Shown: piece after piece, positions 21,979-36,084 of the stretch
Layout: the number at the start of each line of letters is the position of its first letter
How positions within the stretch are numbered: position 1 is the stretch's first letter
From: Bacilli bacterium
Lineage (GTDB): Bacteria > Bacillota_I > Bacilli_A > RFN20 > CAG-826
Reading direction: 5' to 3'
DNA: 61,702 nt
Assembly: GCA_028705995.1 (NCBI GenBank)
Contig: JAQWCH010000006.1
Location: forward strand, 1 to 61,702
Program-made: the position numbers and the translations under genes
The notes under the pieces: generated by a model
The model's database searches: none
The model's input: only the letters and a program-made list of their open reading frames with translations
What the model was told of the DNA's origin: nothing

Positions 21979-21984
21979 AAGTTT

Positions 21985-22145
21985 GTCTTCAGGGCGGGGT
22001 GAAATTCCCCACCGGCGGTAAACCCCGCGAGCTTCGGCATGAACTGGTGTAATTCCAGTGGCGACAGTAAAGTCTGGATAAAAGAGGATATTTTAATCTC
22101 TTTTTGCCCCGGAGAAATCCGGATTTTTATTTCCCGAGGTGCAAA
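21985..22145 (+). ncRNA. FMN (RFN) riboswitch controlling ribU
   Basis: The RFN consensus is plain: AGGGCGGGGTGAAATTCCCC from 21991, ACCGGCGGTAAA from 22011, GGTGTAATTCCAG near 22046 and GGCGACAGTAAAGTCTGGAT near 22060-22079. P1 can pair TCTTC (21986-21990) with GAGGA (22084-22088). Downstream, TTTTGCCCC (22102-22110) can pair with GGTGCAAAA (22138-22146), burying the SD (GAGGTG, 22136-22141) and the first base of the ribU start codon. A CCGG-AGAAAT-CCGG hairpin followed by ATTTTTATTT (22109-22132) is an alternative. FMN binding should lower riboflavin uptake; the translation-level mechanism is my inference. Confidence 0.95.
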
Positions 22146-30990: not shown

Positions 30991-31333
30991 TTGATATCGA
31001 TCCGGACAACCGCTGGTGGGTAACCATTAGAGGAAAGTCCATGCTCGCACGCACTGTGATGTGCGTAGTGATTACGCTAGCGGAAAAAATAACGCTAGGC
31101 TCGGAGGAGTCCGAGACGGCGGAAGAAACCCTAAACCAATGGCATGGGGGCCTTCCTGAAAGTGCCACAGTGACGGAGTTGCTTGGAAACAAGTAAGTGG
31201 AACGCGGTAAACCCCGTAAGCGAGAAACCCAAATTTTGGTCGGGGAAATCGTCAATGAGAACTGAATCAGCGACGGTATGCATTGCATAGATAAATGATT
31301 GTCTAGAACAGAACATGGCTTATGAGATCGATA
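30991..31333 (+). ncRNA. rnpB: RNase P RNA
   Basis: About 340 nt starting immediately after the gpsB stop. Conserved elements: GAGGAAAGTCC near 31031-31041, AGACGGCGGAAG near 31112-31125, CGCGGTAAACCCCG near 31203-31216 and AACAGAACATGGCTTAT near 31307-31323. The ends pair as helix P1: TATCGATC (30995-31002) with GATCGATA (31326-31333), an 8-bp perfect match. It is the catalytic RNA for tRNA 5'-end maturation. I could not assign type A or B securely; type B is expected in this group. Confidence 0.95.
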
Positions 31334-31356: not shown

Positions 31357-31992
31357 ATGAATTTACCAAACAAGATCACCACCTTCCGAATGATCATGGT
31401 CGGCGTTATTGCTATCATGATGCTTTTTCCATATCAAGCATTAGGAATTATAATTCCAAATGTGTTTGCCGAAGTGAATCTAGTTTATTTTATTGTGTTT
31501 TGGTTATTTGTGATTGCCGCCCTTAGTGATTTGGTCGATGGACAATTAGCGCGCAAATATAATCTCGTGACTAATTATGGTAAATTCATGGATCCAATTG
31601 CGGATAAAATGCTTGTTAATAGTCTTTTAATCATTCTTTTGGTCCCAAGTATGACCGCGGCAGCTTCAACTCCCAAGCAAATGGCAATTAACCTAATTGC
31701 TGTTGTTATTATGATTGCCCGTGATCTTGTTGTTGATGGTTTGCGATTAATTGCCGCCAATCAAAAAATTGTGCTTGCCGCAAATATCTTTGGCAAACTG
31801 AAAACAGTTTTACAAATGGTAGCCATCGGAGCAGTTCTTCTTAATGATTGGCCTTTTGCATTAATCTATGGCTATGATGTTGCTATTAATGTGACCGAAA
31901 TATTGGTTTATTTAGCAGCGCTTGCATCATTATTAAGTGGAGTTATCTATGTTGTGCAAAACCGCCACTTACTGAAGGAACACCAGCAATGA
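31357..31992 (+). CDS. pgsA: CDP-diacylglycerol-glycerol-3-phosphate 3-phosphatidyltransferase
   Basis: A 211-residue membrane enzyme making phosphatidylglycerol phosphate. The CDP-alcohol phosphatidyltransferase motif D-x2-D-G-x2-A-R-x8-G-x3-D-x3-D is visible in SDLVDGQLARKY and NYGKFMDPIADK (about residues 63-87), with about five membrane helices. The start at 31357 lies 24 nt after the RNase P RNA end; an upstream in-frame ATG at 31315 falls inside rnpB. It overlaps the next gene by 4 nt. Confidence 0.95.
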   Translation: MNLPNKITTFRMIMVGVIAIMMLFPYQALGIIIPNVFAEVNLVYFIVFWLFVIAALSDLVDGQLARKYNLVTNYGKFMDPIADKMLVNSLLIILLVPSMTAAASTPKQMAINLIAVVIMIARDLVVDGLRLIAANQKIVLAANIFGKLKTVLQMVAIGAVLLNDWPFALIYGYDVAINVTEILVYLAALASLLSGVIYVVQNRHLLKEHQQ

Positions 31993-34181: not shown

Positions 34182-34209
34182 AAACCTAGGCAAAACGCCT
34201 AGGTTTTTT
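34182..34209 (+). terminator. Terminator of the small membrane protein gene
   Basis: A 10-bp perfect stem (AAACCTAGGC 34182-34191 with GCCTAGGTTT 34197-34206), 5-nt loop, T-run to 34209. Confidence 0.9.
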
Positions 34210-34260: not shown

Positions 34261-34289
34261 TTGTCAAAGAAATGTAATTAAACTATAAT
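34261..34289 (+). promoter_or_regulatory. Strong promoter at the head of the rny leader
   Basis: -35 TTGTCA (34261-34266), exactly 17 bp, -10 TATAAT (34284-34289). It is the best-matching promoter in the window and lies about 225 nt ahead of the rny start. Confidence 0.75.
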
Positions 34290-34295
34290 GTAAAC

Positions 34296-34521
34296 GTGAA
34301 ACATTATTGTTTCGCTTTAAACCCATTATTTTGCTCGATGAGTAAATCGCATTCCATCATGGAATTTAAATAAACATAACGTTATTTATTGCTATCATAG
34401 GAGTAAAATTGTGGGCCATAAATGGCTCTTTTTGCCTTTTTATGAATTTTAAAACCTGTAATTCCTGGGTTATACGGTTTAGTCCGTAAGGAATCAACTA
34501 CATCACAAGGAGAATGTATTT
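34296..34521 (+). ncRNA. Long structured leader or small RNA upstream of rny
   Basis: This gene-free stretch holds a series of inverted repeats: GAAACA/TGTTTC (34298-34313), ATTCCA/TGGAAT (34351-34365), ATAAC/GTTAT (34376-34385), GGGCC/GGCTC followed by five T's (34413-34433, terminator-like) and ATTCCT with ACGG pairing to CCGT and AGGAAT (34461-34494). AGGAG (34399-34403) precedes GTG at 34411, which opens a 13-codon frame ending at 34452. It may be a regulatory leader with premature termination, or a separate short RNA. No known riboswitch class is recognised. Confidence 0.45.
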
Positions 34522-36084
34522 ATGCCATTAGAGCTAGCCATTTTCCTAATCGTGCTGTCTTTAATATTTGGGATAGTCCTCGGACTCATCGGTTTTTATT
34601 TAATCCCAATATTTAAAGCCAAAAAAGCTTTGTCAAGAGCAGACAAAATCATTCGCGATGCAGATATTAAAGCGGAACATATTATTAAAAACGCTGAATT
34701 AGATGCAAAGCAAAATAGCATTGAAATGCGCAATGAAGCTGACAAGCAGATTAAGGAAAAGAAGGCAGAGATTGCTGTCCTTCAAAATCAGTTATCCCAA
34801 CGGGAACAATCAATCGATCGGCGCGATATCGCGCTACTTGCAAAAGAAACAACGCTGGAACAAAAAGCCGAAGATTTAGCCCGTGAACGCAAAGAAGTCG
34901 AGAAGAAAAATGATCAGTATCAAGAGAAACTTGATGCAATCATTGTCGAATTAGAACACGTTTCACAAATGTCAACAAATGACGCCCGTGATGAAATCTT
35001 CCGGCGTGTTGAAAGCAAATTATCAAAAGAGATTGCCGCTTTCATTAAAAACAAGGAAGAAGAAGCGGAAGCGACCGTCAATGAACGGGCACGTGACTTA
35101 CTTGTTTTAGCGGTTAATCGCTATTCACAAGAAGTGACAACCGAACATACAGTATCAACGGTAACCTTACCAAACGATGAAATGAAAGGCCGGATTATTG
35201 GTCGTGAAGGCCGCAATATTCGGACGCTAGAACAAATGCTTGGTGTTGATTTAATTATCGATGATACACCCGAAGTAATTACTGTAAGTTGTTTTAATCC
35301 AATCCGGCGGGAAATTGCTACGCGCTCTTTAGCTGTTTTAATTAAAGATGGCCGCATTCAACCAGGCCGGATTGAAGAAGTGGTCGCTAAAGTGCAAAAA
35401 GAAATGGATGAAGTTATTACCAAAGCTGGTCAAGATGCCGCATTCCAATTAGGCTTACCAAGAATCAATAAGGCATTACTTAATTATGTTGGTCGCTTAA
35501 AATATCGGACATCATATGGCCAAAATGGTTACATACATAGTATTGAAGTCGCTTCATTAGCCGGCATTATGGCGGCTGAACTTGGGCTTGATGTCAACTT
35601 AGCCAAACGCTGTGGTTTACTACATGACATTGGTAAATCAGTCGACTTTGAAATGGAAGGAAGCCATGTCGAACTTGGAATTCGTCTTGCCAAGAAATAT
35701 GGTGAACCCGATGAAGTTATCGACTCAATTAGTTCGCATCATGGTGATACAGAATCGCGCTTTATATACTCGCAATTAGTAATTGCCGCTGATACATTAT
35801 CAGCAGCGCGCCCGGGTGCGCGGCGTGAGATGCTCGAGAATTATATCAAACGGCTTGAACAACTTGAGTCAATTTGTAATTCTTATGATGGCGTTCAAAC
35901 CTCATTTGCGATGCAAAGTGGACGTGAAGTGCGCGTGATGGTCGTTCCAGAAAAGATTGATGATCTCGCTGCCCATAAACTCTCCCGCGATATCCGTGAG
36001 CGAATTGAAAATGAAATGACTTATCCTGGTCAAATTAAAATATCTGTGATTCGTGAATATCGGGCGCAAGAGACCGCCAAATAG
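34522..36084 (+). CDS. rny: Ribonuclease Y
   Basis: A 520-residue RNase Y, the membrane-bound endoribonuclease starting mRNA decay in Bacilli. It has an N-terminal membrane helix (about residues 3-25), a long coiled coil (about 35-200), a KH domain (about 210-270, GRIIGREGRNIRTLEQ) and an HD domain (about 335-430) with LLHDIGKS near 367-374. AAGGAG precedes the ATG. Gene order rny-ymdB-miaB-ymcA-mutS-mutL is as in Bacillus. Preceded by an unusually long structured leader. Confidence 0.97.
   Translation: MPLELAIFLIVLSLIFGIVLGLIGFYLIPIFKAKKALSRADKIIRDADIKAEHIIKNAELDAKQNSIEMRNEADKQIKEKKAEIAVLQNQLSQREQSIDRRDIALLAKETTLEQKAEDLARERKEVEKKNDQYQEKLDAIIVELEHVSQMSTNDARDEIFRRVESKLSKEIAAFIKNKEEEAEATVNERARDLLVLAVNRYSQEVTTEHTVSTVTLPNDEMKGRIIGREGRNIRTLEQMLGVDLIIDDTPEVITVSCFNPIRREIATRSLAVLIKDGRIQPGRIEEVVAKVQKEMDEVITKAGQDAAFQLGLPRINKALLNYVGRLKYRTSYGQNGYIHSIEVASLAGIMAAELGLDVNLAKRCGLLHDIGKSVDFEMEGSHVELGIRLAKKYGEPDEVIDSISSHHGDTESRFIYSQLVIAADTLSAARPGARREMLENYIKRLEQLESICNSYDGVQTSFAMQSGREVRVMVVPEKIDDLAAHKLSRDIRERIENEMTYPGQIKISVIREYRAQETAK

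Follow-up and report, generated by a model that had tools for sequence, protein, structure and literature searches.

A conserved leader RNA of the RNase Y gene in an uncultured family of Bacilli, with a predicted transcription attenuator in one lineage

The stretch of DNA analysed here (61,702 nucleotides, hereafter the window) is part of a 1.02 Mb genome (G000) that belongs to an uncultured family of Bacilli. Between positions 31989 and 36916 the gene order is cinA, recA, an ORF of 182 aa, rny and a gene coding for a ymdB-like phosphoesterase. The gene cinA is here limited to the CinA domain (157 aa) and the ORF located between recA and rny has no Pfam match. Two known structured RNAs are found elsewhere in the window: a class B RNase P RNA (RF00011, 276.9 bits) at 30998-31327, about 3 kb upstream of rny, and an FMN riboswitch (RF00050, 103.5 bits) at 21981-22093 on the plus strand. 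The gene situated 3' of the leader studied here is rny, whose product contains the Pfam domains RNase_Y_N, KH_1 and HD. In many Bacillota, mRNA decay is initiated mainly by RNase Y. The features of the leader and of the gene are the following:

34261..34289, plus strand: sigma-A type promoter TTGTCA-17-TATAAT, 11 of 12 matches to the consensus
34296..34315, plus strand: P0, 5'-terminal hairpin GUGAAACA/UGUUUCGC from the inferred +1, 8 pairs in the MFE structure
34322..34336, plus strand: P1 5' strand CCCAU.AUUUUGCUC, from the MFE structure; homologous P1 helices covary in relatives
34338..34398, plus strand: interior of the P1 domain, with an inner helix pairing 34338-34345 and 34389-34398, predicted by MFE only
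34351..34365, plus strand: P3 hairpin AUUCCA/UGGAAU (MFE), followed by the A/U-rich segment UUAAAUAAACAUA
34367..34388, plus strand: P4 hairpin UAAAUAA/UUAUUUA (MFE)
34401..34415, plus strand: P1 3' strand GAGUAAAAU.GUGGG (MFE), whose final three bases belong to the 5' arm of the terminator
34413..34433, plus strand: predicted intrinsic terminator GGGCCA-UAAA-UGGCUC followed by UUUUU, incompatible with the lower part of P1 (terminator scan and folding)
34411..34452, plus strand: GTG frame of 13 codons with AGGAG upstream, probably incidental, without conserved counterpart in relatives
34461..34494, plus strand: downstream hairpin AUUCC..GGAAU with the inner helix UACGG/CCGUA (sequence and MFE)
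34507..34512, plus strand: Shine-Dalgarno sequence AAGGAG of rny, 9 nt before the ATG at 34522
34522..36084, plus strand: rny, coding for RNase Y (520 aa; RNase_Y_N E=3e-37, KH_1, HD), the regulated gene

A preliminary reading of the sequence alone (the sequence-only reading) had placed a near-consensus promoter about 225 nt before rny and had counted at least five inverted repeats in the leader, and both observations hold. The -35 box TTGTCA (34261-34266) and the -10 box TATAAT (34284-34289) are separated by 17 bp, and from the inferred +1 at about 34296 to the ATG of rny the leader measures 226 nt, with at least six hairpins or helices. The whole leader has an MFE of -53.8 kcal/mol (z -3.1). 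For 34296-34415 alone the value is -33.7 kcal/mol (z -5.2), which none of 200 shuffles reached, and this segment ranks second among the 1,028 segments of 120 nt scanned on the plus strand across the window. The repeated ATTCC and GGAAT motifs exist as described earlier, but the predicted fold pairs each copy locally. The decisive alternative, which had not been named, opposes P1 (34322-34336 with 34401-34415) to the terminator hairpin (34413-34428).

A similarity search with the leader DNA in 57 relatives returned only short chance matches. As this search was uninformative, rny was located by its protein and the upstream DNA of the genes was then compared. This comparison reveals a conserved element upstream of rny in genomes of the same family. 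In most of the family's rny leaders, a TATAAT-like -10 box precedes a hairpin by a few nucleotides; this hairpin, P0, is mostly of the form GTAYC..GRTAC and is directly followed by P1. The helix P1, commonly UUACCUA with UAGGUAA, encloses P2 (UUCUC..GAGAA), P3 (CAGG..CCUG, flanked by the conserved segments UUxUC and GUUA-AUAUA) and P4, and thus closes a multibranch domain. P4 varies in sequence, and most relatives have a hairpin there (mean z -1.3). The unpaired positions UAUAxA, UUxUC and GU..AUA are conserved in the domain. In the window, P3 matches in place the conserved hairpin UCAGG..CCUGUUA-AUAUA of the relatives, while a separate P2 is not evident.

Covariation over homologous rny upstream regions had been suggested by the sequence-only reading as a check, and the paired positions do covary: among 57 distinct sequences, 96.8% of the cells of the alignment are paired and 17 of the 22 pairs have changed on both sides. 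The double-change cells number 105, as compared with 5 to 15 in controls where the partners were slid, and no covariation measure was reached by any of 500 shuffles. Most leaders of the family have P0 at this position, and this helix also covaries. Fitting of the alignment to the model biases it towards the structure; the signal is nevertheless far above this bias, as judged from the slid controls and from the variety of pair types (one pair of P3 takes GC, AU, UA and CG across the relatives). Comparative analysis demonstrates that a predicted P0 hairpin and a predicted P1-closed multibranch domain are conserved in relatives, always directly upstream of rny. Sequestration of the Shine-Dalgarno sequence was tested as a general output of this domain and was set aside at the scale of the family, the accessibility being mixed (median unpaired probability of 0.44).

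The covariance model R1 has recovered matches in 71 of the 245 genomes of the order, 70 of which belong to the family of the window, with one copy per genome apart from a few exceptions. The 56 strongest matches are all located 39-127 nt upstream of rny and on the same strand. With the model R2, searched in 395 genomes of the class, matches were found in the family of the window only. In the genome G237, the contigs C1 and C18 each carry rny with its leader, probably owing to contamination or to a mixture of strains. The scan of the leader against Rfam, at gathering and at permissive thresholds, gave neither a family nor a credible sub-threshold match; the scan works, as the FMN riboswitch located elsewhere in the window was recovered. 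The parts of the main text of structured-RNA surveys that were available mention no rny motif, a partial coverage that does not prove absence from the literature. The rny leader RNA is best read as an otherwise undescribed structured RNA, without Rfam family.

Outside this family, inspection of order-wide rny genes (L229-L248) indicates a short hairpin at +1, often GTA..TAC, in several other families; the upstream regions of this type are short leaders with no visible P1 domain. Within the genus g7 (L050, L177, L191, L195-L199), the P1 3' strand GGTAATAATC can also pair downstream, as in L050 (AATAATCAC..GTGATTATT-TT), which may provide a further expression platform lacking a strong terminator.

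The copy of the window is more divergent. R1 gives no match on its leader, and what R2 returns with filters off is limited to 10.6 bits and misplaced; the nearby genera have leaders scoring 48.5 bits (g4) and 42.0 bits (g15). As the covariance models do not match it, its membership is assessed from place, architecture and phylogeny. Immediately before rny, the leader displays a hairpin at +1 and a multibranch domain closed by P1 and including P3 and P4. The tree of RNase Y unites the window with g20 (support 100/94), then with g3, g10 and g29 (99/98), and this clade adjoins g15 and g4, which are genera positive with the models. We infer that the leader of the window is a fast-evolving member, or lineage variant, of the conserved rny leader RNA.

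The intrinsic terminator suspected at 34413-34433 is confirmed as a candidate by the scan: the hairpin 34413-34428 is followed by TTTTT, and two terminator-like sites are detected in the region as compared with 0.2 +/- 0.5 in shuffles, the other one (34182-34206) ending the upstream gene. With 6 pairs, -6.9 kcal/mol and five U, this terminator is modest. Its 5' arm shares the bases GGG 34413-34415 with the P1 3' strand. Such a continuity between the P1 3' strand and the 5' arm of the terminator is found in L031 (the window), L032, L033, L034 and L035, where the overlap is built from different sequences in each relative and is weaker in L035. In L034 it takes the form ACTCGT...ACGAGT...ACTCGT-TTTTTT, the middle copy being able to pair with either flank. 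The terminators of L032-L034 were identified by eye, then tested by shuffling and by ensemble energies. When the U-tract emerges, the ensemble containing the terminator lies above the free ensemble by 2.6 (L031), 0.6 (L032), 1.2 (L033), 1.6 (L034) and 1.5 kcal/mol (L035). As these differences are only of 0.6-2.6 kcal/mol, read-through is predicted by default with a stop within reach.

Compared with shuffled upstream sequences, the terminator arm pairs significantly with its upstream region in L034 (0 of 300), at a borderline level in L033 (5%) and unremarkably, taken alone, in the window (22%), L032 (25%) and L035 (10%). Since the pairing is mostly not significant in a single copy, the case for a switch rests on its recurrence in related genera. 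An intrinsic terminator exclusive with an upstream helix, which defines an attenuator, is predicted in the window and recurs in L032, L033 and L034. The variant is limited to the genus of the window, g20 and g3, and doubtfully g4. Few strong terminators were detected across the family outside the clade of the window and g4 by a scan using a strict U-tract rule, which itself missed L032-L034. Attenuation would consequently be a lineage variant and not the rule of the family.

The best reading of the leader of the window is a poised transcription attenuator, as modelled from these predicted folds, included in the rny leader RNA; this would probably make it an internal switch for the amount of RNase Y produced. 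For the direction, the signal and the in vivo effect of this switch we infer the following scheme. During transcription P1 would form first and let the RNA polymerase read into rny; if the P1 domain were opened, bound or cut, the terminator would form and transcription would end about 138 nt from the start. RNase Y is the most likely candidate for the signal, through its KH domain or by cutting the A/U-rich segments next to P3, which are conserved and unpaired. By binding or cutting the P1 domain, excess RNase Y would exert a negative feedback on its own synthesis, RNase Y being the endonuclease chiefly responsible for mRNA decay. In the relatives without terminator, the same domain may act on the stability or the translation of the mRNA. 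A signal tied to RNase Y is favoured over a general metabolite by the exclusive linkage to rny and the single copy per genome. The Bacillus subtilis enzyme prefers single-stranded A/U-rich RNA near structure, as is found beside P3. We give a probability of about 0.45 to this main reading, that is, a lineage variant of an rny-specific leader with a choice between P1 and terminator and with RNase Y as the most likely signal. The wider proposal, that an undescribed class of leader RNA monitors how much RNase Y is present or how active it is, and in this lineage decides accordingly between termination and continuation of rny transcription, is put forward tentatively, the odds being somewhat against it. 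Premature termination in a structured, regulatory rny leader, as supposed by the sequence-only reading, is supported, as a prediction, by the covariation, the competing P1 and terminator and the linkage to rny only; autoregulation of the decay enzyme, as a hypothesis, fits best among the options then listed.

The same architecture may be read otherwise. A P1-closed aptamer for a small molecule or an ion, the binding of which either favours P1 and read-through or releases the terminator, would account for the junction-type fold with conserved unpaired UAUAxA, UUxUC and GU..AUA, for the P1 strand common to the terminator and for the variable expression platforms, all traits typical of riboswitches. 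Metabolite riboswitches for the most part also govern genes for transport or synthesis, whereas this element is found only upstream of rny, in one copy per genome and in a single family, and no known aptamer family of Rfam matches the leader; such a riboswitch is unlikely. We consider equally unlikely, though possible given the 5'-terminal hairpin found at rny across the order without visible P1 domain, that P0 and the P1 domain act as a constitutive stabiliser, shielding the 5' end from RNase J/RppH and pacing the decay by RNase Y, the terminator-like hairpin of the clade of the window being weak or incidental and no switch being involved. The position of P0 at the inferred +1, the similar hairpin found order-wide even without P1 domain and the majority of leaders without terminator agree with such protection, but simple protection needs neither a conserved unpaired junction nor a recurring overlap of P1 and terminator. 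The balance between P1 and terminator might also be set by another RNA-binding protein, for instance a ribosomal protein or a KH-type regulator. The presence of one gene per genome suits this explanation and the architecture is compatible with ribosomal-protein leaders; no Rfam ribosomal-protein leader matches and no candidate regulator was identified, which makes it improbable.

Two further options of the sequence-only reading have lost ground. The AGGAG-GTG frame of 13 codons at 34411-34452 exists and spans the terminator, and L033 has a GTG frame of 12 codons at the same place, as a leader-peptide attenuator would have it. The peptides have no relation to each other and lack a run of any regulatory codon, and L034 has no such frame, nor was any found in L032 by the same scan; this candidate was rejected for the lack of conservation of the frame in relatives and is the least probable of all the explanations. 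An independent trans-acting small RNA, supposed to be of about 135 nt, is hardly more credible. Promoter and terminator do delimit a transcript of about 138 nt, but the conservation is found only in cis upstream of rny and in relatives without terminator rny follows almost immediately on the covarying domain, so that the short transcript would be at most a terminated by-product.

A leader that covaries, occurs only at rny and has a variant with a terminator suggests a dedicated sensor acting in cis. The element, of 120-140 nt, is defined enough for direct tests of the sensing of decay capacity, in a family without laboratory model. If the wider proposal is true, a transcription attenuator governs the main mRNA-decay enzyme of a bacterium.

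The setting of the RNase Y level has been studied in B. subtilis, where the control operates by cleavage of the rny message. It is established there (PMC10303841) that RNase Y autoregulates through its own mRNA, including cleavage of the 5' UTR, and the enzyme is described as preferring single-stranded A/U-rich RNA near structure. The gene is the same, with its own sigma-A promoter and a long 5' UTR (164 nt in B. subtilis, about 226 nt here), and expression is tied to the RNase Y level, which is here only proposed (PMC10303841). The B. subtilis control differs in that it relies on cleavage by RNase Y in the ORF and the 5' UTR with trimming by RNase J1, and the available part of the account describes neither a P1-closed domain nor a terminator (PMC10303841). 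In enterobacteria, RNase E binds a stem-loop of the rne leader (as cited in PMC10303841). The likeness with rny is that the principal endonuclease of decay has a leader which is structured and conserved, and which presumably reads the enzyme encoded after it; the enzymes are unrelated and no Rfam sequence or structure match links the rne 5' UTR to the rny leader. The RNase E leader of the rne5 type, rne5 being presumably the Rfam name of the rne 5' UTR element, gave no match in the Rfam scans of the rny leader, and we know of no terminator switch in the enterobacterial rne leader. Finally, unlike the terminator-coupled riboswitches and protein-responsive attenuators of Bacillota, the rny leader is linked to one housekeeping RNase gene only and has no Rfam family, but it shares with them a P1 strand included in the terminator and a conserved junction domain ahead of it.
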